Positions 6,266 through 63,346 of a stretch of 64,000 nt of DNA are shown piece after piece (the first letter of the stretch is position 1; each line of letters opens with the position of its first letter). Source of the stretch: Norana najaformis (Eukaryota; Annelida; Clitellata; Crassiclitellata; Hormogastridae); assembly GCA_964023275.1 (NCBI GenBank), contig OZ029927.1, positions 18,160,039-18,224,038 of the forward strand. Direction: 5' to 3'. Both the position numbers and the translations under genes were made by a program. Under the pieces are notes generated by a model. That model was not told the DNA's origin and ran no database searches. It saw only the letters and a list, made by a program, of their open reading frames with translations.

Positions 6266-6479
6266 GTTATAAAATTGCACATATAGAATACCATGCAAGC
6301 ATACATATATATATTTATTCATAAATATACACTGTACATACATACATACATACATTAATACATACATACACACATACATACATATTTACACACACAGACA
6401 TACATACAGACAGAGGAACAGTGTATATTTAGCGGTTAGGATGACTTTAATTCTGAAATTGGGGAAAAATTGTAATTTA

Positions 6480-6727
6480 ATTTTCAAAGCCGAGGCTTTA
6501 ATTTTCAAAGCCGAGGCTTCCATTTTCAGAGCCGAGGCTTTCATTTTCAAAGCCGAGGCTTTCATTTTCAAAGCCGAGGCTTCCATTTTCAGAGCCGAGG
6601 CTTCCATTTTCAGAGCCGAGGCTTTCATTTTCAAAGCCGAGGCTTCCGTTTTCAAAGCCGAGGCTTCCATTTTCAAAGCCGAGGCTTCCATTTTCAAAGC
6701 CTAGGCTTTCATTTTCAAAGCCGAGGC
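6480..6727. repeat. 21-bp minisatellite, about 12 units
   Basis: Tandem copies of ATTTTCAAAGCCGAGGCTTYC. Variation is mostly CAAAG versus CAGAG and CTTTC versus CTTCC. Each unit contains the near-palindrome AAGCCGAGGCTT, able to form a small hairpin. The 21-bp period keeps frames open on both strands (heptapeptide repeats), so the open frames are not evidence of coding. Confidence 0.96.
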
Positions 6728-6817
6728 GCTAATTTTGAATCTCCTACTACAACTCTAGCACTGGTCAACATAGGAATCGTTACTGACTGGAAAAGGCCCT
6801 AATGTGTAGCATCTTGG

Positions 6818-6868
6818 TGTGCTGAACACGAATATAACCATAAAAATTTTTTATTGGCTCTCGTTTTG
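6818..6868 (+). repeat. Left terminal inverted repeat
   Basis: Begins TGTGCTGAACACGAATA and runs to about GGCTCTCGTTTT. The 18-nt outer part is an exact inverted match of the right arm, and the inner part matches with scattered substitutions. Confidence 0.88.
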
Positions 6869-7055
6869 AAAATATTTCATATAGTTCATTTTTTATGTTT
6901 CACCATGTAAATTTATGCAGTAGGACTGCGACAATATCCTAAATAAGTCTAGAATGATGTAATATTCCACCTCATTGCATAATCCCATCATGGACACATC
7001 ATGCACAGTTGATTACGTCATTTTCTGATGCAATGTAAAATTACAGCCAGTCGGC

Positions 7056-7093
7056 TGCTGACGTAAGATGACGTCAGCAGTGTACTATATAAA
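7056..7093 (+). promoter_or_regulatory. CRE-like dyad plus TATA box
   Basis: CTGCTGACGT at 7056-7065 and ACGTCAGCAG at 7071-7080 form a perfect 10-bp inverted repeat around AAGATG. The right half completes TGACGTCA (7069-7076), the consensus CREB/ATF site. TATATAAA follows at 7086-7093. The ATG at 7209 is about 115 nt downstream, a normal layout for a Pol II core promoter with a short leader. That ATF/CREB factors act here is an inference. Confidence 0.7.
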
Positions 7094-7208
7094 GCGAGTC
7101 GGAACGGTTGAGCATTTACAATATTACAGACTTTGTGCGAGACAGTTTAAGTTACTGTTTTATAAAACTGTTATTACTTTATCCATTTAGATACAATACA
7201 GAACAGTA

Positions 7209-8906
7209 ATGCCTCGGAAGTGCGTAAATACTGTGGACAACTTTTGTTACATTTGTGGGGAAGTGACATTTGCCAACCAGAAGAAAAGTATCACTTATCA
7301 AGTCAAGAAGGCATATCATGCTTACTTCGAATGCAAGGTTGGTGACCAAGACAAGCCATGGGCCCCGCATATATGCTGTGCTACATGTACAACACAGCTT
7401 TCACAGTGGTTGAATGGCAAAAGACCATCAATGCCGTTTGCAGTTCCCATGGTGTGGAGAGAGCAAAGCAACCACGTAGATGACTGTTACTTCTGCTTGG
7501 TTCCTCCTCTTTCCGGTGGAATAACGAAGCAAAAGAAGTCGACAATAGTCTACCCAAACATTCCGTCAGCATTGAGACCAGTTCCACATGGTGATGGACT
7601 TCCTATTCCAGAACCTCCAGCAGAATATATTTTCCTTGATTCATCTGATGAGGACAAGAGTGAGCCGACATGTTCTTCTCCTGGTCCGTCAGCGTGCAGT
7701 GATCCCGATTTTCACTGTGGTGCATCATCAACCCCACACAGAATAACACAGGAAGAACTAAATGACCTTGTTCGTGATTTGGACTTATCCAAAAACAAGG
7801 CAGAATTGCTAGGATCAAGACTCCAACAATGGAATCTTCTAGAAGAAGATGTCACAATTACTTCATATAGAAAGCGCCATCAGCAGTTGGAACCTTTCTT
7901 TATGAAGGAAGGTAATCTGGTATTCTGTTCCAATATTGACGACCTCATGAATGCCTTACAGATCACTCATGACCCACAAGAATGGAGACTCTTTGTAGAC
8001 TCTTCAACACTGAGTCTTAAGGCTGTGCTTTTGCACAATGGAAACCGTCTTCCATCTATTCCATTAGCGCATGCTGTCCACATGAAAGAGACATACGATA
8101 ACCTAAAACAGCTACTGCATTCCATTGACTATAACAGGTACAAATGGCACCTGTGTGGTGATTTGAAGGTAGTTGCCATTTTAATGGGACTGCAGCAAGG
8201 ATATACAAAATATATGTGTTTCTTGTGTGAGTGGGATAGCCGAGCAAGAGAGTTGCACTACGTGCGGAAGGAATGGACTCCCAGACAAAACATGGCAGTT
8301 GGACAGAAGAATATCCAGCACCCAGCTCTGGTCGAGGCTCACAAAATCCTACTACCACCCCTTCACATCAAACTAGGTTTGGTGAAGAACTTCGTGAAAG
8401 CCATGGACCGCACTTCGCCAGCTTTCCGATACCTGCATGAAAAATTCCCTCGACTCAGCGAAGCAAAGATTAAAGAGGGAGTTTTTGTGGGTCCTCAGAT
8501 TAGAGAACTCTTCAAAGATGACCGCTTCAACAACTTGCTGGAGGGTGATGCGAAACAAGCATGGAATGCTTTTCGTCTAGTGTCTACAGACTTTCTGGGG
8601 AATGTTAGGGCAGAAAACTACAAGGAACTAGTAGAAGACATGCTCAAGCAGTACCAGAAATTTCGCTGCAATATGTCTCTGAAGATGCATTTCCTTCATT
8701 CCCATCTGGATTTCTTCCCTGACAACTGTGGTATGGTTAGTGACGAACATGGCGAACGTTTTCATCAAGATATCGCAACAATGGAGCAAAGGTACCAGGG
8801 AAAATGGTCCATTACAATGTTGGCTGACTACTGCTGGACACTCCGCAGAGATGCTCCCGAACAGCTGTACAAGAGACAGGCAAAAAATCTAAGAACTAGT
8901 CTATGA
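7209..8906 (+). CDS. Transposase-like 565-aa protein with zinc-binding cysteines
   Basis: Uninterrupted 565-codon frame from ATG 7209 to TGA 8904-8906, in normal mixed codon use unlike the surrounding repeats. The N-terminus has CYIC (C13/C16) and HICCATC (H54, C57/C60), reminiscent of a ZAD- or THAP-like zinc module, then CYFC (C93/C96). A Ser/Glu-rich linker (about 145-175) precedes a domain with FVDSS (D264), CGDLK (D318), CFLCEWDSR (C337/C340) and DEHGERFHQD (D512-D521). An Asp, an Asp followed by a Cys-x2-Cys insert, and a late Glu fit an RNase H-like DDE fold. Proteins of this type recur in invertebrate genomes as uncharacterised proteins. Flanking inverted repeats and the absence of introns support a transposase; a host-domesticated gene is the alternative. 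Confidence 0.85.
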   Translation: MPRKCVNTVDNFCYICGEVTFANQKKSITYQVKKAYHAYFECKVGDQDKPWAPHICCATCTTQLSQWLNGKRPSMPFAVPMVWREQSNHVDDCYFCLVPPLSGGITKQKKSTIVYPNIPSALRPVPHGDGLPIPEPPAEYIFLDSSDEDKSEPTCSSPGPSACSDPDFHCGASSTPHRITQEELNDLVRDLDLSKNKAELLGSRLQQWNLLEEDVTITSYRKRHQQLEPFFMKEGNLVFCSNIDDLMNALQITHDPQEWRLFVDSSTLSLKAVLLHNGNRLPSIPLAHAVHMKETYDNLKQLLHSIDYNRYKWHLCGDLKVVAILMGLQQGYTKYMCFLCEWDSRARELHYVRKEWTPRQNMAVGQKNIQHPALVEAHKILLPPLHIKLGLVKNFVKAMDRTSPAFRYLHEKFPRLSEAKIKEGVFVGPQIRELFKDDRFNNLLEGDAKQAWNAFRLVSTDFLGNVRAENYKELVEDMLKQYQKFRCNMSLKMHFLHSHLDFFPDNCGMVSDEHGERFHQDIATMEQRYQGKWSITMLADYCWTLRRDAPEQLYKRQAKNLRTSL

Positions 8907-8987
8907 CCTGGTTTTTACAAATATTAACTGTAAGTGTATCACTATTGGCATGCATTGTGCGATATAAAATTACTTCATTTCAGATTA

Positions 8988-9041
8988 CAAAAAAACTAGA
9001 GCCAATTCGGCATTTTCACTGTCATATTCGTGTTCAGCACA
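8988..9041 (-). repeat. Right terminal inverted repeat
   Basis: Inverted copy of the left arm. It ends ATATTCGTGTTCAGCACA at 9024-9041 and lies about 80 bp beyond the stop codon. Confidence 0.88.
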
Positions 9042-9080
9042 TACAAATTGATAAGAACTGACTAATTTCATTTCAGTAAC

Positions 9081-9680
9081 ATGACTTTTGTAAAAATTTG
9101 TTGTCCAGTGTAATTGCTCTTGACACTATTCACATTACAAAAGCACATTCGTCAATGGCAGATGAAGTTTCTGTTACCGATGAGTCGATCGATGGACGGC
9201 GTGCAAGCGTAACTGGTGCATCAACAGCAGGATGTTTACTCAGAAAATTGATTTTCAGGAGGCTACTCGATCGATCACCGACAGGAGACCACCGAGTCAA
9301 AGTAAAGGAGGGAGTAAATGCGAATGAGAGGGATAAAAGGCAGACATGGAAACAGAGACAAGCAGAGCTCTATGTTGATCTTGTTTTGATAATCCATCGT
9401 CCTTTAAACGATGTGTTCGTCTTCTGAAGTCATTCTCTAATCGAATTGTGTTATTTTCTTCTTTTCTTATTGCTTTCCATTTCTCGGAACTCCAATAAAA
9501 GGCAACAACATTCGGAAAACTTTATTTTTGGTATTGCTTGTGGCCAGAGAGACGTTTATTTGTCGTGGAGAAGGATTCCTCGCATACCTGAACTTCGGCC
9601 TACATACAACATGGACGTTGGCCCAGGACAGAACGGAGTGGCTTTGCCTCGTGGACGGGGCTACGTTGAGCTGAGTTCTT
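9081..9680. other. Gene-free stretch
   Basis: Two short frames (9098-9427 and 9446-9739) have no recognisable domain and the second ends in a GA repeat. Neither is called. Confidence 0.5.
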
Positions 9681-36686: not shown

Positions 36687-36806
36687 CGATTATCTATCAA
36701 AGACCAGCGTTTCTCTCATTCTTATTCAGTCTTCCCGACCATTCGTTGATTGCCTACGTGCCCGACTTTTGAATGTTGCAGACTCTACCCGATCGGTGCA
36801 GAGAAA

Positions 36807-38348
36807 ATGCGTTGCCTTGCAACAGTACTGATTTTACTGGAGACTTTTCAAGCCGTTTCTGGTGCAAAGATCATCATGACATCGCCACAGTTTGGTAGCC
36901 ACATATTAGAACAAGCCTCACTCGGAGAAGAACTGGCATCAAGAGGTCACCAGGTTTTTATTGCCGTTGGTTCGCGATACCCGAACATAGCCAACATCGA
37001 GAAACGCGGACTGAAGACGCTCACCTATAAGATTCCCAATGATGTTCTGTATGGAGTCTCGGACGAAATGGAAAAACTGGCGGCGGAAATCGTTTTCGAC
37101 CAGAGTTCAGACAAAATGGCCTTATCAGGTAAAGTGGGATCCCAGCTTTGTTATCGCGACTGTGCATATATGATGGCGGATGACGATTTTTTGGAGAATG
37201 TGAGACGACTCAAGTTCGACCTGGCGATCGTGGAATCGTTCATTATCGGGCCTTGCACTCTAATCTTACCAAAATATTTCGGACTACCTTTCGTCTCGAA
37301 TTCCGGACTTTTTGTTCCATGGCATATTCGCATCCCAGCACTACCGTCGTTCGCCAATTTCATGTCTGCCTGGACTGGTTTGTCTGATATAACATTCACA
37401 TCCAGACTGGGCAACTTATTCACGTATTGCGCTATTGACATAATATTTTCCAATATGGCGCCTGAAAATACAACCCTTCTCGAACGCTATGGTTCAGAAT
37501 ACGAAACGTGGAATGATCTTTTAAGGCAGTCAGAGCTGTTCTTAGTAGATCGCGATCATCATCTTGGCCCTCCGATTCCAGAAATGCCGAATTATATTTC
37601 TGTGGCTGGAATAAATACAGCTAAACCCAAGAAACTTCCAAAAGACTTGGAAGACTTAGCGGAAAAATCAGATGGCATTATTTTGCTGAGTTTCGGATCG
37701 GCTGGATATTACTTTCCAAAAGAAGTTGTTGTGAAATTTCTTGAAGCGTTTTCCAAACTGAATCAGACAGTACTGGCGAAGCTTTTCATTCCAGACGACG
37801 TCAAAGTACCACAGAATGTTAAGGTATTCTCGTGGTTGCCACAAAACGACATTCTCGGTCATCCAAAGACAAAGCTCTTTATTACTCACTGTGGAATCAA
37901 TGGTCAATACGAGGCGCTGTATCATGGTGTACCGATGATAGGATTTCCACTCTTTGCAGAGCAGCATCAAAACTGTCATCGAGCCTACAAGAAGGAATTC
38001 GGTTTGGAGATGAAGATACAGGATTTCACTTCCGATGAACTGTTCGTCAATATCCAAGAAGTTCTCAACAATCCGAAATATCGGTCAACAATCGGAAAAG
38101 CATCAGAAGTTTTTCGGGATCAACCAATGACTGCGCGCGAAAGAGGGGCATTCTGGGTTGAACATGTGATCAGACACGGAGGAAAACACCTGCGCTCTCC
38201 TGCAATGGACCTTCCTCTCTATCAATTCCTCATGTTAGATGTGCTATTTGTGATTGCATTTGGCATTGCTGCTGTTATATTTCTGTTAAGAAGTGTTTTA
38301 AGGTGTCTTTGCAACAGATCAAAACAGCCAAAGTTAAAATCCAGTTGA
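36807..38348 (+). CDS. UDP-glucuronosyltransferase-like UGT, copy 1
   Basis: An ER-membrane GT1-family enzyme expected to transfer a sugar from a UDP-sugar to a lipophilic acceptor. 513 codons, no intron. Signal peptide at residues 1-20 (ends AVSGA). The catalytic-base candidate is H32 in FGSH, and the acidic partner position holds E143 (AIVES; Asp in vertebrate UGTs). The donor signature runs from W343 (WLPQNDILGHPKTK) through FITHCGINGQYEALYHGVP to AEQ (E385/Q386). HCG replaces the usual HGG (C362). Predicted N-glycosylation sites are N221 and N319. A membrane helix spans about 474-494, then a short basic tail ending KLKSS, a KxKxx ER-retrieval motif. The ATG at 36807 is chosen over 36750 because UGT3 has an in-frame stop in the corresponding extension. 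AATAAA lies at 38525. A conserved TGTTGCAG before the start may be a 5'-UTR splice acceptor. Confidence 0.95.
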   Translation: MRCLATVLILLETFQAVSGAKIIMTSPQFGSHILEQASLGEELASRGHQVFIAVGSRYPNIANIEKRGLKTLTYKIPNDVLYGVSDEMEKLAAEIVFDQSSDKMALSGKVGSQLCYRDCAYMMADDDFLENVRRLKFDLAIVESFIIGPCTLILPKYFGLPFVSNSGLFVPWHIRIPALPSFANFMSAWTGLSDITFTSRLGNLFTYCAIDIIFSNMAPENTTLLERYGSEYETWNDLLRQSELFLVDRDHHLGPPIPEMPNYISVAGINTAKPKKLPKDLEDLAEKSDGIILLSFGSAGYYFPKEVVVKFLEAFSKLNQTVLAKLFIPDDVKVPQNVKVFSWLPQNDILGHPKTKLFITHCGINGQYEALYHGVPMIGFPLFAEQHQNCHRAYKKEFGLEMKIQDFTSDELFVNIQEVLNNPKYRSTIGKASEVFRDQPMTARERGAFWVEHVIRHGGKHLRSPAMDLPLYQFLMLDVLFVIAFGIAAVIFLLRSVLRCLCNRSKQPKLKSS

Positions 38349-39990: not shown

Positions 39991-42900
39991 AGGCAAGCCA
40001 AGAAGAGCCCAGGGTTCCCCTTAATTAGGGTCGACTATTAACATCGATAACACAAGATGGCAATCGAAATGTAAACAAAGCAATTATCATTATATAACCA
40101 AACTAAACAAGTTATGTACAATCCGTACATAAATGAAACTGAAAATAAAACTATGCACAAGTCCATTGCACTGGACAGTCCCATAAGAAACTCAAAAAAG
40201 AAGAAGAAACTAATAGTTTGTATGGACATTTTAATTAGCAGTCAAACAGACGATAATAGTTTCGCATCTGCCTTTTAAACAATTTCAAACTTAACGAAAT
40301 ACGAAAGCTCATTGGTAAAGCGTTTCAGACTGAAGGACCAGCACATTTAATATTAAATAATTGAGTATTGGTGCGAGCAAAACTGGCATAATAATTACCC
40401 TGGGTCCTGGTAAAATATGAGTGATGATCGGTAATGTTGAAGTAACCATCAAACTTCGATGGCAATAATTTATGTTGATATTGATACATAAAAATAGACA
40501 TTTGAAACTTAGTAATGGAATTAATTTTTAAAATATTTAGATTAACAAAACAGTGTTCAATATCCTTCCCTTGAAATTTTTTTGTATCAATTCTAAGAAC
40601 ACTGCGCTGCAAAACAGACAAGCATTTTATACGCGAGGGATAATTGGAGGTCCATAATAGGTTACAGTAGCACAAGTAAGGATAAATCTACGAATAATAC
40701 AGATTAATTAATATCGCTTGGGTAGGATATAACGAATACATGACAGCATACCACAGCATTAACAATTTTACTTGATATATGAGACATATGCTGTCTCCAA
40801 CTTAAATGAGAGTCAATATAAACTCCAAGAAATTTACACGAATTCACTTGAATAATGAGTTGGTTATCGGTAAAAATATTAACGGTCGATTTACAAAGAA
40901 CCTTCCGATGTGATCTAAATAATATAAAATTAGTCTTATGTAAATTCAAGGATAGCCTATTAGCACGAAACCAGTCAGCAACTGATACAAGTTCGCTATT
41001 GACAGACCCAATCAGAGCATCCAACGATTTATTAGGTAAAAAACATACGTGTCATTGGCAAACAATATAAAATGAAGTAATTTAGATGAGTTCGGAAGGT
41101 CATTTATATATAACAACAACAAAAGTGGGCCTAGAGTAGAGCCTTGCGGAACTCCATAACGGATGGATCTGATGTTGGACGGGCTCTACTACACTAAACT
41201 TACTGTTGTCTCTCAATGGAGGTAGCTCTTAAACCGACAAAGTGGAAGTCCCCGTACTCCATAAAATTCAAGCTTCCTTATCAAGATAGCATGATCTACA
41301 GTGTCGAAAGCTTTCGCCAAGTCAAGAAACATTCCAACAGATAGCTAATTACTGTCAATAGCCTGGGAAATGTTATCGTGCAGATCTAAAAGCGCCATTG
41401 AGATAGATAGGCCCGTTTGGAAGCTAAACTGGTTATGATATATTACATTCGTTTTTGAATGTAGTTGTAAAAGCGATCAAACATCAATTTTTCAAAATAT
41501 TTTGGAAATAAAGAAAGAATTGAAATTGGCCTATAGTTGCTGACATTGTGTTTAGTTCCTGATTTAAAAATAGGTATTACCTTGGCAATTTTTATAACAA
41601 TAGGATCTATAACTTTGGAAAATTAGCAATTAATTATTTCAGTCAACGGTGAGGCAATATTATGGATAGTAGGATCAACAATGCAGGGATCTATACCATC
41701 TGGACCAGCACTATGCGTAATTCTCAGAGAACAGAAAATTGTGATGATTTCTTCGGCTGAAGTTGAACATAGTCCAAATGACTGAAAGGGTGAATTCCTC
41801 AAAAAGGATTCAAAATAAGTTTTAGTTTTTGGAATGGTTTGCGCTAGCGACTGTCCAACACCAGTAAAGAACTTATAAAACTTATTTGAGATAGAATTAG
41901 AGTCGGTATACATCAGTACATCTATATTAAGACCATCAACAGGTTTAATCAAATCACCTGACACAACCAGTGATCGCACAATACTCCAAATTTTTATTGC
42001 TATTTTTACAAGCAGTGAATTTATCAGCAAAATACTGCTGTTCAGCTTTAAGTATAATTTGTTTAAATTTATTTCTATAATGATGAATTTAGATTTATTT
42101 TCATGAGAAGGTTTTTAGATATTTAAGATATAGTTTAGATTTTTCTGCCGGATTTGAACAAAGCAGTTGTCATCCAAGGTTGCTTAATATGACTTCGCTT
42201 AGAATGATTGCCAGGGATCAGACGGAGCGCCATATTGTACGCATTCTTGTATAGGTCAATTAACAATGTATAAGCAAGTAAAGGGTCGTGATTTTCACAA
42301 GCATTAATTATCGGTGTCCAGCCAATCCTACCCAATATTGAGTGGAAATGTTTTATCGACTCATCAGTAGTCGCTTGGTATGCAAATTTTAACTGCTTAC
42401 TATAACAGGTTTTAAGTAGCCCCAAGCAATGATAGGAAGATGGTAAGATATTTCACTTATAAGAATTGATGAGTCGAAAGAAGTTTCATAAACATTGGTG
42501 CAAATATTATCAATTAGAGTGGCAGAGGTATCGGTTATTCGCATAGGTCGAAGTATTAATGGGGTAAAATGTTAGAAGTTGTCGTAGAAATTTCGAGTAT
42601 GAACATGATTCTCAGTTTTAAAAAGATCAACATTAAAATCAACACCAAATAAATACGTTTTCCCAGTAAGCGACAGTCCAGATTATAACTGTTCCATTTC
42701 CACGCTGAAGAGTTCTAAAGGTGACACAGGCGGACGATAGACTACACGTATACTGTATACAGTCTTTTCCTTTATCTTGTGGTATAGTTATGAATATACA
42801 CTCATATGTTACATTGTCAAACAACGGTGTTTCTAAATACAATATTTTAAATTTAACACCTGTCTTTATAAGAAATGCTACTCTACCTTCTTTGTCAGAA

Positions 42901-43575
42901 GTTCTACATTTGGATACGAACTGATAACCTGGAATGTTTGTGGAGGGCTCAGTAACAGAGTCGAGCCATGTTTCGGTAAAGGCCAACACAGTAACCGGAA
43001 TCTATGAAAAAGAATCAGAACCTCAGGTATTTTGGGATAGAGGCTTCTGCAGCTCAAGTGCATAAATTTAAACGCGTTATAGGGTAAAGAAGAAAATTTA
43101 GCAGCTAAAGAATCAGCAGTTTGATATGAGCTGTTGCAAAGACTGGAGGTAAAATAGTTTTCGTCTGGTTCCAAATCTCTCTTATTTAAGACAGCACGCT
43201 TCTGCTGTCCAACAAATGGGTCAAATTTCAGTTTGTCATAGTGTGTAGACAAATGAAATGGAGAGTCATCCAACACAGAAATAGCATCAAGAAAAAGAAA
43301 TTCATCATTTATATGATTGAGTCGGAGAATCGATTTAATGCACTGCGAGCAGTACCGGGATTCACGTTGAGCCTTAATTAAACTTATCTGGGTCCAAATC
43401 AGTACATCTTAAATGAACAACATTGCTGCAGATCGCGCAGTTTGCATATTCGTGGATAGATTTTATGTCACTGCTACATACAGAACATGATTGTGTAACT
43501 AAGAATTCAATCGCTAGTGATAATTGGCGTCTGGTGAGGTTTACACTTGTAAATATGCTATTTAGCATAGGTCAT
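39990..43575 (-). mobile_element. APE-type non-LTR retrotransposon, near full length but dead (copy 1)
   Basis: On the minus strand, in order: a PHD/zinc-knuckle-like ORF1 piece (CSVCSSDIKS, then CAICSNVVHLRC; 43568-43374); the endonuclease with HLSCRSLYPKIPEVL (about 43070), FTETWLDS (42985), VYRPP (about 42745) and SATLIDNIC (about 42515); then the reverse transcriptase with AGPDGIDP (about 41700), SNYRPISI (41545), [14 protein letters not shown] (about 41320), GVPQGSTLGPLL (41150), FANDT (about 41060) and LNLHKTNFILFRS (40950), ending at 40325. Frameshifts separate the parts. The catalytic FADD reads FAND. Jockey/CR1-like clade by motif. It was copied with unit 1, since unit 2 has it at the same place. 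Confidence 0.88.
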
Positions 43576-46010: not shown

Positions 46011-46383
46011 ATTGATCTGGTTACGAATTAAATGAAGGCGTTTAGTTTCATACATTAGTACACAGCTGTATGTTTCATGTATTCTGAAAGCTGTTGGCAT
46101 TAGATAATAACCTATGCACGGTACTTACCAAAGGTCACACACATTGACAAACTACGCAGAAAGACAAAACCCAGACCTCGTTTAGACTTTCGGATGTCAA
46201 AGGGCGCCTTTATCAACGGGCGCAGAATTGTGACCTTAGGCCTCGTCATGGAGGCAAAGGTCAGGATTATCTTTCAAAGGGCTGCGCTTCTCTCATTCTT
46301 ATTCAGTCTTCCCGACCATTCGTTGATTGCTTACGTGCCTGACTTTTGAATGTTGCAGACACTACCCGATCGGAGCAGACGTA

Positions 46384-47925
46384 ATGCATTGCGTTGTAAG
46401 AGTGCTGATTTTACTGGAGACTTTTCAAGCTGTTTCTGGTGCAAAGATCATCATGACATCGCCACAACTGGGTAGCCACATATTAGAACAAGCCTCACTC
46501 GGAGAAGAACTGGCATCAAGAGGTCATCAGGTTTTTATTGCCATTGGTTCGCGATACCCGAACATAGCCAACATCGAGAAACGCGGACTGAAGACGCTCA
46601 CCTATAAGATTCCCGATGATGTTCTATATGGAGTCTCGGACGAAATGGAAAAACGGACAGCAGTAGTCGTTTTCGACCAGAGTTCAGACAAAATGGCCTT
46701 ATCAGGTAAAGTGGCATCCCAGCTTTGTTATCGCGACTGTGCATATATGATGGCGGACGATGATTTTCTGGAGAATGTGAGACGACTCAAGTTCGACCTG
46801 GCGATCGTGGAACCGTTCATTCTCGGGCCTTGCACTCTTGTCTTACCAAAATACTTCGGACTACCTTTCGTCTCGAATTCCGGAATTTTTGTTCCATGGC
46901 ATATTCGCATCCCAGCACTACCGTCGTTCGCCAATTTCATGTCTGCCTGGACTGGTTTGTCTGATATAACATTCACATCCAGACTGGGCAACTTATTCAC
47001 GTATTGCGCTATCGACATAATATTATCCAATATTGCGCCTGAAAATACAACCCTTCTCGAACAATATGCTCCGGAATACGAAACGTGGAATGATCTGTTA
47101 CGACAGTCCGAGCTGTTCTTAGCAGATCGCGATCATCATCTTTCCGCTCCGATTCCAGAAATGCCGAATTATATTTCTGTGGCTGGATTGACAACCGCTA
47201 AACCCAAGAAACTTCCAAAAGACTTGGAAGTCTTAGCGGAAAAATCAGATGGCATTATTTTGCTGAGTTTCGGATCGAATGCATATTACTTTCCAAAAGA
47301 AGTTGTTGTGAAATTTCTTGAAGCCTTTTCAAAACTGAATCAGACAGTACTTGTGAAGTTCTTCATTCCAGACGACGTCAAAGTCCCACAGAATGTTAAG
47401 GTATTCTCGTGGTTGCCACAAAACGACATTCTCGGTCATCCAAAGACAAAGCTCTTTATTACTCACTGTGGAATCAATGGTCAATACGAGGCGCTATATC
47501 ATGGTGTACCGATGGTAGGATTTCCACTCTTTGCAGAGCAGCATCAAAACTGTCATCGAGCTCACAAGAAAGATTTCGGTTTGGAGATGAAGATACAGGA
47601 TTTCACTTCTGATGAACTATTCTCCAATATCCAAGAAGTTCTCAACAATCCGAAATATCGGTCAACAATCGGAAAAGCATCAGAAGTTTTTCGGGATCAA
47701 CCAATGACTGCGCGCCAAAGAGGGGCGTTCTGGGTTGAACACGTGATCAGACACGGAGGAAAACACCTGCGCTCTCCTGCAATGGACCTTCCTCTCTATC
47801 AGTTCCTCATGTTAGATGTGCTATTTGTGATTGCTGCTGGTATTGCTGCTGTTATATTTCTGTTAAGAAGTGTTTTCAGGTGCCTTTGCAACAGATCAAA
47901 ACATCCAAAGTTAAAATCCAGTTGA
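46384..47925 (+). CDS. UDP-glucuronosyltransferase-like UGT, copy 2
   Basis: 513 codons, collinear with copy 1 and with the same signal peptide length, H32, E143 (AIVEP), HCG signature, membrane helix and KLKSS end. It differs from the others mainly in residues 91-95 (RTAVV) and in the linker before the donor domain (HHLSAPIPEMP, then AGLTTAKPKK). VKFFIPDD replaces AKLFIPDD of copies 1 and 3, and the membrane segment reads VIAAGIAAV. The Leu-Thr-Thr and VKFF variants are shared with copy 4. AATAAA is at 48049. An upstream in-frame ATG at 46327 is disregarded for the reason given for copy 1. Confidence 0.95.
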   Translation: MHCVVRVLILLETFQAVSGAKIIMTSPQLGSHILEQASLGEELASRGHQVFIAIGSRYPNIANIEKRGLKTLTYKIPDDVLYGVSDEMEKRTAVVVFDQSSDKMALSGKVASQLCYRDCAYMMADDDFLENVRRLKFDLAIVEPFILGPCTLVLPKYFGLPFVSNSGIFVPWHIRIPALPSFANFMSAWTGLSDITFTSRLGNLFTYCAIDIILSNIAPENTTLLEQYAPEYETWNDLLRQSELFLADRDHHLSAPIPEMPNYISVAGLTTAKPKKLPKDLEVLAEKSDGIILLSFGSNAYYFPKEVVVKFLEAFSKLNQTVLVKFFIPDDVKVPQNVKVFSWLPQNDILGHPKTKLFITHCGINGQYEALYHGVPMVGFPLFAEQHQNCHRAHKKDFGLEMKIQDFTSDELFSNIQEVLNNPKYRSTIGKASEVFRDQPMTARQRGAFWVEHVIRHGGKHLRSPAMDLPLYQFLMLDVLFVIAAGIAAVIFLLRSVFRCLCNRSKHPKLKSS

Positions 47926-54762: not shown

Positions 54763-55134
54763 ATTGATCTGGTTACGATTTAAATGAAGGCGTTTAGTTT
54801 CATACATTAGTACACAGCTGTATGTTTCATGTATTCTGAAAGCTGTTGGCATTAGAAAATAGGCTATGTACGGTACTTTCCAAAGGTCACACGCATTGAC
54901 AAACTACGCAGAAAGACAAAACCCAGACCTCGTTTAGACTTTCGGATGTCAAAGGGCGCCTTTATCAACGGGCGCAGAATTGTGACCTTAGGCCTCGTCA
55001 TGGAGGCAAAGGTCAGGATTATCTTTCAAAGGGCTGCGTTTCTCTCATTCTTATTCAGTCTTTCCGACCATTCGTTGATTGCTTACGTGCCTGATTTTGA
55101 ATGTTGCAGACTCTAATCGATCGGTACAGAGAAA

Positions 55135-56676
55135 ATGCGTTGCCTTGCAACAGTACTGATTTTACTGGAGACTTTCCAAGCTGTCTCTGGTGCAAAGATC
55201 ATCATGACATCGCCACAGTTTGGTAGCCACATATTAGAACAAGCCTCACTCGGAGAAGAACTGGCATCAAGAGGTCATCAGGTTTTTATTGCCGTTGGTT
55301 CACGATACCCGAACATAGCCAACATCGAGAAACGCGGACTGAAGACGCTCACCTATAAGATTCCCGATGATGTTCTGTATGGAGTATCGGATGAAATGGA
55401 GAAACTGTTTGCGAAAATTGTTTTTGACCAGAGTTCAGACAAAATGGCCTCATCAGGTAAAGTGGCATCCCAGCTTTGTTATCGCGACTGTGCATATATG
55501 ATGGCGGACGACGATTTTCTGGAGAATGTGAGACGACTCAAGTTTGACCTGGCAATCGCGGGACCGTTCATTCTCGGGCCTTGCACTCTAATCTTACCAA
55601 AATACTTCGGACTACCTTTCGTCTCGAATTCTGGATTTTTTGTTCCATGGCATATTCGCATCCCAGCACTACCGTCGTTCGCCAATTTCATGTCTGCCTG
55701 GACTGGTTTGTCTGATATAACATTCACATCCAGACTGGGCAACTTATTCACTTATTGCGCTATTGACATAATATTATCCAATATTGCGCCTGAAAATACA
55801 ACCCTTCTCGAACAATATGCTCCGGAATACGAAACGTGGAATGATCTTTTACGGCAGTCAGAGCTGTTCTTGGTAGATCGCGATCATCATCTTGGCCCTT
55901 CGATTCCAGAAATGCCGAATTATGTGTCTGTGGCTGGAATAAACATAGATAAGCCCAAGAAACTTCCAAAAGACTTGGAAGACTTAGCGGAAAAATCAGA
56001 TGCCATTATTTTGCTGAGTTTCGGATCGGCTGCATATTACTTTCCAAAAGAAGTTGTTGTGAAATTTCTTGAAGCTTTTTCAAAACTAAATCAGACAGTA
56101 CTGGCGAAGCTTTTCATTCCAGACGACGTCAAAGTCCCACAGAATGTTAAGTTATTCTCGTGGTTGCCACAAAACGACATTCTCGGTCATCCAAAGACAA
56201 AGCTCTTTATTACTCATTGTGGAATCAACGGTCAATACGAGGCGTTGTACCACGGTGTACCGATGATAGGATTTCCACTCTTTGCAGAACAGCATCAAAA
56301 CTGTCATCGAGCCTACAAGAAGGAATTCGGTTTGAAGATGAAGATACAGGATTTCACTTCCGATGAACTGTTCGTCAATATCCAAGAAGTTCTCAACAAT
56401 CCGAAATATCGGTCAACAATCGGAAAAGCATCAGAAGTTTTTCGGGATCAACCAATGACTGCGCGCGAAAGAGGGGCGTTCTGGGTTAAACATGTGATCA
56501 GACACGGAGGAAAACACCTGCGCTCTCCTGCAATGGACCTTCCTCTCTATCAGTTCCTCATGTTAGATGTGCTATTTGTGATTGCTGCTGGTATTGCTGC
56601 TGTTATATTTCTGTTAAGAAGTGTTTTCAGGTTCTTTTGCAACAGATCAAAACAGCCAAAGCTAAAATCCAGTTGA
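55135..56676 (+). CDS. UDP-glucuronosyltransferase-like UGT, copy 3, with altered catalytic-acid position
   Basis: 513 codons with the same architecture as copy 1. An in-frame TAA 15 nt before this ATG fixes the start for the whole family. H32 is kept, but codon 143 (55561-55563) is GGA: AIAGPFILG replaces AIVE of the other copies, so the acidic partner of the catalytic His is missing at this position. Other differences are LFAKI at 91-95 (shared with copy 4), HHLGPSIPEMPNYVSV, INIDKPKK and FWVKH. The signature and tail are intact and the frame is undisturbed, so this is a substitution in a maintained gene, not general decay. Activity could be reduced, altered, or supported by another residue. 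AATAAA is at 56852. Confidence 0.94.
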   Translation: MRCLATVLILLETFQAVSGAKIIMTSPQFGSHILEQASLGEELASRGHQVFIAVGSRYPNIANIEKRGLKTLTYKIPDDVLYGVSDEMEKLFAKIVFDQSSDKMASSGKVASQLCYRDCAYMMADDDFLENVRRLKFDLAIAGPFILGPCTLILPKYFGLPFVSNSGFFVPWHIRIPALPSFANFMSAWTGLSDITFTSRLGNLFTYCAIDIILSNIAPENTTLLEQYAPEYETWNDLLRQSELFLVDRDHHLGPSIPEMPNYVSVAGINIDKPKKLPKDLEDLAEKSDAIILLSFGSAAYYFPKEVVVKFLEAFSKLNQTVLAKLFIPDDVKVPQNVKLFSWLPQNDILGHPKTKLFITHCGINGQYEALYHGVPMIGFPLFAEQHQNCHRAYKKEFGLKMKIQDFTSDELFVNIQEVLNNPKYRSTIGKASEVFRDQPMTARERGAFWVKHVIRHGGKHLRSPAMDLPLYQFLMLDVLFVIAAGIAAVIFLLRSVFRFFCNRSKQPKLKSS

Positions 56677-60280: not shown

Positions 60281-61687
60281 GATTTTAATATAGTGGTCGT
60301 AAAATTAGACGCACTGTCACTTATACTTTGGACGGAGTGCAATAACTTAACGCAGTTGAAATTTGGAAACATTTCTGAAGATAAACTGTGATGATGCAAA
60401 GTCTTCTTTTAGTAACAAGCGACTTATCCTTGACAGGCCATAAAAATCCCAAATCATATCTACACGTGTGGCCACATAGACATATTTTCGTTCGTGTGTA
60501 TGTGCACAAGTTCGTAATAAAATGGACATAAATATACATATATATGCGTATGCATATTATCATGCGTTCTTTTCGGTTCATATGTGTACATGCTTGTGCG
60601 TGTTTTTAGTCCTCTAGGTGTGCATATGTTCATGTATATACATGTCATGGCTCATTATATATATATATACATTAATATGGTGCTGCACCTGTTTGCTTAC
60701 TATATAAAGCTTCAACCTCATCGTTAATGCCAAGATGTCTGAAGTGACACTAAGCTAAGCGTACACTTTTGATAAAGTTCATGCTAAATGCACGTATGTG
60801 TATTAACATGTTTGCAGCCGGGGCCATGCTAGCAAGGTGAACTGGCGTGGTCTGTCCTAGATAATATGGGAGTTATTCAGAGTTGAAAAGCCTTCAGAAT
60901 GACTCAGCTAAACTGTTTGTTGTCCCGTCTATTGATGGTGCAGAGGGCGTCCGCAAATCGAGCTGAGCTAGAAAGCTGCTTTAAAGCGTCCCACAACTTA
61001 ACCCGAAGGATTCAGATGCAGTATCAGCCAGGGTTGCAGGGTTGTTAATCGACAGTTTTCAACTTGTTGTGAGAAGACTCACGATCACGGATTTGCGAGA
61101 ACTCGTAGGTAAATGCAAATGTAAATACATTCGTTTTCTATAGCCATTGTACAGACTCGACCCTGCTCACACTTCAATGAATTAATCGGGTGGAATCTTT
61201 CACCAAAACTGTCCGTTTCAAATGACGACACGCCAAATAAGGTCCCCGGGCACGGACCGTGCCAGCCCGAGATTCAAATTTTAAGTAAGTTGAGGAAGGG
61301 TATACGCCTTCAAGATCAGTCTTAGATATAAAAGTGGCATACCAGAAGTGTGCTTACCAGCCACTTAAAGTTGGTAGAATGACGGGTATGGGTAATACAA
61401 TATTTTTCAATGTTTTGACGTCGTGTAATGTTGACCACTGCGTTAAAGTGTCTAACGCGATGCGATGATTTGACAGGTTTTTCATTTTTCGTGGGCTGTG
61501 ACATATTCTGAAAGATTTTTAAATCACAAGCGTTCAAATGAGTGTGGCCATAAAATGAGTATATCGAGCAATTATAAGATCCCGCTATCAAGAGGACTGG
61601 CCAGTCGCCCTCATATGCCGTGGCTACGAAAACAAACTAACTCACACTTTACGAACATGACTGCAAAAGCCCACCCTCTCGGGGTTA
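60281..61687. other. Gene-free stretch upstream of UGT4
   Basis: No gene recognised. ATATATATATACATTAATAT lies at about 60657. A GTGGAATCTTTCACCAAAAC then GTCCGTTTCAAATGACGACA segment at about 61190-61230 resembles 21208-21250. This interval lacks the CpG block and the 5' flank of the other UGT genes. Confidence 0.55.
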
Positions 61688-61804
61688 GCTTTCAAAGGGT
61701 ACGCCTTTCTCATTTTTTTCTCATTCGGTCTTTCCGAACATTCGTTGATTGCTTATGTGTCTGACTTTGAATGTTACAGACTCTACCCGACCGGTGAAGT
61801 GACA
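61688..61804 (+). promoter_or_regulatory. UGT4 proximal 5' flank (shared segment)
   Basis: Homology to the other UGT 5' flanks begins near AGCTTTCAAAGGGT and covers only about 115 bp before the ATG, including CATTCGTTGATTGC and TTTGAATGTTACAG. The conserved AG of TGTTACAG fits a 5'-UTR splice acceptor, which could explain why similarity reaches only this far. Confidence 0.4.
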
Positions 61805-63346
61805 ATGCATTCCCTTGTACGTTTACTGATTTTACTGGAGACTTTCCAAGCTGTCTCTGGTGCAAAGATCATCATGACATCGCCACAGTTTGGTAGCCAC
61901 ATATTAGAACAAGCCTCACTCGGAGAAGAACTGGCATCAAGAGGTCATCAGGTTTTTATTGCCATTGGTTCGCGATACCCGAACATAGCCAACATCAAGA
62001 AACGCGGACTGAAGACGCTCACCTATAAGATTCCCGATGATGTTCTGTATGGAGTATCGGATGAAATGGAGAAACTGTTTGCGAAAATTGTTTTTGACCA
62101 GAGTTCAGACAAAATGGCCTCATCAGGTAAAGTGGCATCCCAGCTTTGTTATCGCGACTGTGCATATATGATGGCGGACGACGATTTTCTGGAGAATGTG
62201 AGACGACTCAAGTTTGAACTGGCGATCGTGGAACCCTTCGTCATCGCGCCTTGCACTCTAATCTTACCAAAATACTTCGGACTACCTTTCGTCTCGAATT
62301 CTGGACTTTTTGTTCCATGGCATATTCGCATCCCAGCACTACCGTCGTTCGTCAATTTCATGTCTGACTGGACCGGTTTGTCTGATATTACACTCACATC
62401 CAGGCTGGGCAACTTATTCACGTATTGCGCTATTGACATAATATTATCCAGTTTTGCGCCAAAAAATACAACTCTTCTGGAACGTTATGCTCCGGAATAC
62501 GAATCGTGGAATGATCTTTTACGACAGTCCGAGCTGTTCTTAGCAGGACGCGATCATCAGCTTGGCTTTCCGATTCCAGAAATGCCGAATTATATTTCTG
62601 TGGCTGGATTGACAACAGCTAAACCCAAGAAACTTCCAAAAGACTTGGAAGACTTAGCGGAAAAATCAGATGGCATTATTTTGCTGAGTTTCGGATCGGC
62701 TGCATATTACTTTCCAAAAGAAGTTGTTGTGAAATTTCTTGAAGCTTTTTCAAAACTGAATCAGACAGTACTTGTGAAGTTCTTCATTCCAGACGACGTC
62801 AAAGTCCCACAGAATGTTAAGGTATTCTCGTGGTTGCCACAAAACGACATTCTCGGTCATCCAAAGACGAAGCTCTTTATTACTCACTGTGGAATCAATG
62901 GTCAACACGAGGCGCTGTACCATGGTGTACCGATGATAGGATTTCCACTCTTTGCAGAGCAGCATCAAAACTGTCATCGAGCCTACAAGAAGGAATTCGG
63001 TTTGGAGATGAAGATACAGGATTTCACTTCTGATGAACTGTTCGTCAATATCCAAGAAGTTCTGAACAATCCGAAATATCGGTCAACAATCGGAAAAGCA
63101 TCGGAAATATTTCGGGATCAACCAATGACTGCGCGCCAAAGAGCGGCATTCTGGATTGAACATGTGATCAGACACGGAGGAAAACACCTGCGCTCTCCTG
63201 CAATGGACCTTCCTCTCTATCAGTTCCTCATGTTAGATGTGCTATTTGTGGTTGCATTTGGCATTGCTGCTGTTATATTTCTGTTAAGAAGTGTTTTCAG
63301 GTGCCTTTGCAACAGATCAAAACAGCCAAAGCTAAAATCCAGTTGA
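61805..63346 (+). CDS. UDP-glucuronosyltransferase-like UGT, copy 4
   Basis: 513 codons with the same architecture as copy 1: H32, E143 (AIVEP), HCG signature, membrane anchor and KLKSS end. The first ~210 codons follow copy 3 closely (LFAKI, KMASSGKV). The middle follows copy 2 (AGLTTAKPKK, VKFFIPDD) and the membrane segment follows copy 1 (VVAFGIAAV). Private changes include FVIAP at 145-149, KNTTLL, GRDHQLGF, NGQHEAL and RAAFWIEH. The acceptor-side N-terminal half holds most of the private changes, consistent with a different substrate range. No AATAAA appears at the position used by copies 1-3; ATTAAA near 63575 is a possible substitute. Confidence 0.95.
   Translation: MHSLVRLLILLETFQAVSGAKIIMTSPQFGSHILEQASLGEELASRGHQVFIAIGSRYPNIANIKKRGLKTLTYKIPDDVLYGVSDEMEKLFAKIVFDQSSDKMASSGKVASQLCYRDCAYMMADDDFLENVRRLKFELAIVEPFVIAPCTLILPKYFGLPFVSNSGLFVPWHIRIPALPSFVNFMSDWTGLSDITLTSRLGNLFTYCAIDIILSSFAPKNTTLLERYAPEYESWNDLLRQSELFLAGRDHQLGFPIPEMPNYISVAGLTTAKPKKLPKDLEDLAEKSDGIILLSFGSAAYYFPKEVVVKFLEAFSKLNQTVLVKFFIPDDVKVPQNVKVFSWLPQNDILGHPKTKLFITHCGINGQHEALYHGVPMIGFPLFAEQHQNCHRAYKKEFGLEMKIQDFTSDELFVNIQEVLNNPKYRSTIGKASEIFRDQPMTARQRAAFWIEHVIRHGGKHLRSPAMDLPLYQFLMLDVLFVVAFGIAAVIFLLRSVFRCLCNRSKQPKLKSS

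Follow-up and report, generated by a model that had tools for sequence, protein, structure and literature searches.

The question raised by this locus is whether an intact open reading frame lying between inverted repeats, in a window of 64,000 nucleotides from the annelid Norana najaformis, forms part of a mobile element and, if so, of which kind. An earlier note on this DNA had described an autonomous-looking inverted-repeat element, running from 6779 to 9080, with a zinc-finger and DDE-like protein of no named family. From the analysis presented here, it is very likely a DNA transposon that moves autonomously by cut-and-paste, is of the Chapaev3 kind within the Chapaev-Mirage-CACTA (CMC) clade, and has multiplied in this genome very recently. 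Chapaev3 is a group of animal transposons distantly related to RAG1, the recombinase of antibody genes.

The extent of the element became clear from comparison of 47 copies with differing flanks. Likeness between the copies reaches CACTGG at position 6759 and CCAGTG at position 9110, and the flanks diverge outside these points, so that the whole transposon measures 2352 bp. The span given in the earlier note as the whole element was thus too short, the true ends lying 20 bp further left and 30 bp further right, and the block GTTACTGA, which had been taken for the outer edge, is an internal one beyond which the copies are still alike. The ends of the copy in the window are composed as follows.

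6759–9110, plus strand: whole transposon with CACTGG...CCAGTG ends
6756–6758, unstranded: left flanking trinucleotide TAG, from flank comparison
6759–6770, plus strand: left terminal repeat CACTGGTCAACA, 11/12 identical to the right terminus
6779–6786, plus strand: left subterminal block GTTACTGA, 20 nt inside the terminus
6818–6867, plus strand: left 50-nt arm, an inverted match to the right arm
8992–9041, minus strand: right 50-nt arm, an inverted match to the left arm
9073–9080, minus strand: right subterminal block GTTACTGA, 30 nt inside the terminus
9099–9110, minus strand: right terminal repeat CACTGGACAACA, compared with the left terminus
9111–9113, unstranded: right flanking trinucleotide TAA, from flank comparison

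A tandem array of 21-bp units (12 copies, consensus TTTCATTTTCAAAGCCGAGGC) occupies window positions 6476–6727, which leaves a gap of about 30 bp to the left terminus of the window copy.

Copies of the element are dispersed over the genome. A DNA search of the 608 Mb assembly, in which the best 40 of 1149 first-look candidates were scored, returned full-length and near-identical copies in all cases, and a protein search, with the best 77 of 6567 candidates scored, gave 98–100% identity throughout. The protein is thus encoded at 98% identity or more at at least 77 genomic places, 64 of these 77 being without an internal stop. With a 120-base query from the left end, the best 40 of 1010 candidates were scored. 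The copy counts rest on the best-scoring candidates only, and the total number may plausibly amount to several hundred. A single-copy gene with no second set of the inverted repeats is ruled out by the dozens of near-identical copies carrying these repeats at many genomic places, and the mobility that the earlier note had proposed is evident from dispersed copies, defined ends and target duplications.

The 47 copies were obtained from 58 loci (L001–L058) by removal of 9 duplicates of places already counted and of L031 and L058, which were set aside by a length filter. The median pairwise distance between them is 0.00425 (about 0.4%), with no difference at all in two pairs, and 44/47 have retained an open frame of 560 aa or more, values that overstate intactness and youth for the family as a whole because these copies were drawn from the best-scoring matches. 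The minor variants (36 synonymous, 105 non-synonymous) are evenly spread over the codon positions, a near-neutral distribution as expected with neutral drift of copies after insertion. The copies are young, and the element is a Chapaev3-like transposon that has been active recently and is probably autonomous; it may even be active at present. A second sample consisted of 20 left ends, fetched out of 35 left-end matches outside the first loci; the right end was found at full-length distance in 13 of them, the other 7 being truncated, deleted or shifted. Two copies situated about 19 kb apart on C10 in opposite orientation (L009 and L010) have the left flank in common and differ in their right flanks, which suggests a rearrangement or inverted duplication.

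Alignment of genomic copies, which the earlier note had proposed for finding the exact ends and the target-site duplications, disclosed duplications of 3 bp. Canonical CACTGG..CCAGTG termini, in agreement with the 5'-CAC ... GTG-3' ends of Chapaev3, are present on both sides in 35/47 copies, and at least one end is non-canonical in the other 12. An exact 3-bp duplication flanks 24 of the 35 copies with two canonical ends, the letters being TAA (10), TTA (9), TAT (2), CTA (1), TTG (1) and TTT (1), so that TAA or TTA accounts for 19 of the 24. An A stands just before the duplication in 20/24 and a T just after it in 18/24, while the full A-TWA-T pattern is found in 12/24 only; a TWA duplication between A and T is thus a preference of this element and not invariable. 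When left and right flanks were swapped between copies as a control, 3-bp identity was seen in 254/1190 cases, a background that is high because the target motif itself is common to the copies. Longer matches are rare, and a 6-bp match was seen in 1/35 canonical copies (L013), where it is a TTA repeat. Unequal flanking trinucleotides occur in 11/35 canonical copies, among them the window copy (L029), whose target duplication is imperfect with TAG on the left versus TAA on the right. In the second sample an exact 3-bp duplication was found in 7/12, a count that leaves out L062, which has a one-letter difference in its terminus, though its flanks match too. A paralogous empty site points in the same direction: L043 sits in a repeat of which an empty relative occurs in L052 (85% identity over 439 columns), and there the junction shows TAA only once, L043 itself having an altered right terminus. 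Slight alterations of the right terminus were observed in L028, L043, L021, L022, L030 and L019, and CCAGTATA before the TAA is common to L028 and L043.

Transib elements produce target duplications of 5 bp. Membership of the Transib/RAG group is ruled out by the 3-bp duplications described here (24/35, with a 4-bp match in 1/35, L038, in place of the 3-bp one, and a 5-bp match in 0/35), and ProtoRAG differs in the same way, since its duplications are described as 5 bp long (PMC8289069). What the element shares with Transib, RAG1 and ProtoRAG, as far as the descriptions drawn on extend, are the CAC termini and the occurrence of C(2)C...H(4)H between the second Asp and the last Glu (PMC4411706, PMC8289069, PMC8355894).

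The coding part of the element is made up of the following features, where some of the residue calls for decayed relatives (see below) depend on local matches that are weak or out of register.

7209–8906, plus strand: transposase frame, an uninterrupted ORF of 565 aa plus stop
7245–7496, plus strand: cysteine-rich N-terminal part spanning C13–C96, a candidate zinc finger of the Chapa type
7998–8000, plus strand: D264, candidate first catalytic Asp, D in 4/5 covered decayed relatives
8160–8162, plus strand: D318, candidate second catalytic Asp, D in 5/5 covered decayed relatives
8217–8228, plus strand: C(2)C motif C337-x2-C340, both Cys in 4/6 relatives, with a gap in the other 2
8361–8366, plus strand: LH motif L385-H386, read in the protein
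8688–8705, plus strand: H(4)H motif H494-x4-H499, with H494 in 3/5, H499 in 2/5 and both in 1/5 covered relatives
8745–8756, plus strand: E513 and E516, one of the two being the candidate catalytic Glu, both Glu in 2/5 covered decayed relatives

The intact frame and all residues that the earlier note had named (C13/C16, C57/C60, C93/C96, D264, D318, C337/C340 and E513/E516) are found at the positions it gave, and its portrayal of an autonomous-looking inverted-repeat element, with the motif order of a DDE transposase and an insert of the zinc-binding type, agrees with the sequence. The distance from D318 to C337 is 19 residues, and the same spacing is found in RAG1 (D708, C727). The motifs follow each other in the order D264, D318, C337-x2-C340, L385-H386, H494-x4-H499 and E513/E516, as in Chapaev3, for which C(2)C, LH and H(4)H are listed (PMC4079192), but motif order alone is only moderate evidence because shuffles reproduce it (125/20000 for the core, 986/20000 for the whole protein). 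The CxxC pairs at 13, 57 and 93 fit, in a comparison by description alone, the 'Chapa' complex zinc finger reported at the N-terminus of Chapaev3 and RAG1-like proteins (PMC4411706). In Pfam, the N-terminal region gave a sub-threshold hit only, and a retrotransposon gag was rejected, the Pfam hit to it being below threshold. No model of Pfam or NCBIfam scored above cut-off with the 565-aa protein, a sequence search of the PDB gave no match at E below 1, and the RAG1 and Transib chains in the PDB showed no sequence match to it. Single-sequence AlphaFold2 models of the full protein and of residues 236–560 were too poor for use (mean pLDDT 38 and 40), and the fold searches done with them, in which nothing reached E 0.001, hence carry no weight.

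Relatives of the family were sought with a degenerate pattern built to exclude the young copies, which yielded 10 further genomic sites, and none with the reversed pattern as control. The 6 of these 10 sites that were read contain stops and frameshifts and show 36–52% identity in the best-scoring matches, which indicates that the genome contains, beside the young lineage, older ones of this kind that are dead. Conservation of LH in these relatives is no evidence, because the search pattern itself selected the LH region. Scans of viral contigs and prokaryote genomes gave no confirmed relative, a result of little weight since these collections are not eukaryotic; three contigs from the viral scan match a short motif only, and tblastn of the whole protein found nothing significant there.

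Considering the above, the assertion that the protein has no named family finds no support. In the published account of Chapaev3, a group that includes Merrow, Garfield and Conan, the hallmarks are CAC/GTG termini, a duplicated TWA with A before it and T after it, the motifs C(2)C, LH and H(4)H, an element of about 2.3 kb and a transposase of about 560 aa, the Garfield_BM element for example having 2289 bp and 556 aa, and most members are described as single-exon (PMC4079192). The Norana element, in which 565 aa are encoded by one uninterrupted genomic frame, is alike in termini, target duplications, motifs, size and exon number, the likeness being one to the published description. It differs from that account in that the flanking A and T, called invariable there, are no more than a preference here, and in having one uninterrupted frame whereas Garfield and Merrow have two exons (PMC4079192). 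The spacing at its termini differs by 10 bp between left and right. The classification itself is ordinary, in that it adds a further member to a known transposon group, of which this is a good intact example.

Descent from Chapaev3 itself, and not from another lineage of the same clade, would best account for these likenesses. The alternative that the element is an animal EnSpm/CACTA-type transposon, or comes from a CMC lineage as yet without a name in which termini, 3-bp duplications and cut-and-paste mechanism are the same, appears unlikely to us, even though several of the observations fit it. The CAC..GTG termini and 3-bp duplications found here are called consistent with EnSpm too, and C(2)C together with H(3-4)H, located after the second Asp and before the last Glu, is ascribed to all CMCT lineages named in that work (PMC12730594). 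CA..TG ends and short duplications are further traits that the element has in common with EnSpm/CACTA and this wider clade. These termini and duplications do not discriminate for EnSpm/CACTA, because they are common to Chapaev, and against such an origin it can be stated that the TWA preference, the length of 2.35 kb and the uninterrupted 565-aa frame come closest to the published description of Chapaev3, and that no Pfam family scored above its cut-off.

That the element represents a DDE transposon superfamily of its own, separate from the CMC clade, as implied by the earlier note, might be argued from the lack of Pfam and NCBIfam matches above cut-off and of anything of weight among PDB sequences, but the libraries searched may contain no Chapaev3 model, and since the element agrees with the published hallmarks of Chapaev3 in its termini, its target duplication, its motifs and its size, we regard this as very improbable. 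That a host gene, domesticated or belonging to a multigene family, lies between inverted repeats by chance, for which the intact 565-aa frame could be cited, is hardly conceivable and is refuted by dozens of dispersed near-identical copies with target duplications, by identity across the element that stops sharply at the termini, and by the near-neutral variation.

The ends of this Chapaev3-like transposon have a modular composition, with the order, going inward, of a 12-bp terminus, a spacer (8 bp at the left end, 18 bp at the right end), GTTACTGA, 31 bases and a 50-bp arm. The inverted arms of about 50 bp that had been noted earlier match at 40/50 positions, including the exact 18-nt outer stretch, as compared to a maximum of 31 for 50-nt inverted matches when both end regions were shuffled base by base 60 times. 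Also the second inverted match at equal distance, reported in the same note, was recovered, GTTACTGA lying 31 nt outside both arms. The 31 bases in between are unconserved (10/31 alike), and an 8-nt match in the register of the arms occurred in 16/20000 shuffles. The 50-nt arm is a probable candidate for the transposase-binding site.

The distance from terminus to GTTACTGA is constant, namely 20 nt in 42/42 copies with a left terminus (5/47 are without one) and 30 nt in 39/40 copies with a right terminus (7/47 are without one), which counts as one observation and not as 42 because the copies are near-identical. If counted from a 7-nt heptamer starting with CAC, a way of counting that is our own choice, the left spacer measures 13 bp and the right one 23 bp, close to the 12/23 of V(D)J signals, and their difference of 10 bp is about one helical turn. 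According to published accounts, V(D)J signals (12/23), ProtoRAG (27/31) and a few Transibs also have end blocks whose spacers are unequal (PMC8289069, PMC8355894). It is tempting to see in this an asymmetric design resembling that of recombination signal sequences (RSS), but we give this reading little chance, because the gain or loss of 10 bp, in one event at one ancestral end, explains the spacing equally well; moreover, GTTACTGA is unlike the RSS nonamer, and the spacing was measured in one family only. If transposition were to require a left and a right end together, the pairing of asymmetric ends would either predate the RAG/Transib lineage or have arisen independently of it. With its unequal end spacing, the family allows the question of how such pairing originated to be tested in a lineage other than that of RAG.

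A possible mechanism can be formulated for the Chapaev3-like transposon. The 565-aa transposase would be read from its one uninterrupted frame and would bind the modular ends (12-bp terminus, GTTACTGA and 50-bp arm), probably through its N-terminal cysteine-rich domain. Cleavage at CAC/GTG would be carried out by a catalytic centre of D264, D318 and E513 or E516, in a putative DDE-type fold with an RNase H-like core, braced by a predicted zinc site formed by C(2)C...H(4)H. A-TWA-T would then be the preferred place of insertion, where a staggered cut would give rise to the 3-bp duplication. The biology of Chapaev is described as largely uncharacterised (PMC4079192), and a literature search covering titles and abstract openings found no activity test of Chapaev, which may exist nevertheless. 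The many near-identical stop-free copies with clean ends offer a natural entry to the biochemistry of a distant relative of RAG1.

Upstream of the reading frame, two features of a possible promoter were recognized.

7013–7076, plus strand: three CRE-like sites from a motif search, TTACGTCA at 7013, TGACGTAA at 7059 and TGACGTCA at 7069
7086–7093, plus strand: TATA-like box TATATAAA, read from the sequence

The three CRE-like sites stand directly upstream of TATATAAA within the transposon (window 7013–7093) and may have a role in promoter function, with TATATAAA possibly serving as a TATA-like box. CRE-like sites number 10 in the 64 kb window, as many being found in 1/100 shuffles. Elsewhere in the window, four similar open frames of 519–561 aa, which resemble UDP-glycosyltransferases, are arranged in a row (36750–38348, 46327–47925, 55117–56676 and 61661–63346), and paired TGACGTCA sites 857–870 bp apart precede three of the four (35351 and 36221, 44928 and 45798, 53693 and 54550). 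Open frames on the minus strand at 41623–43408 are presumably fragments of a decayed retrotransposon of the reverse transcriptase type.
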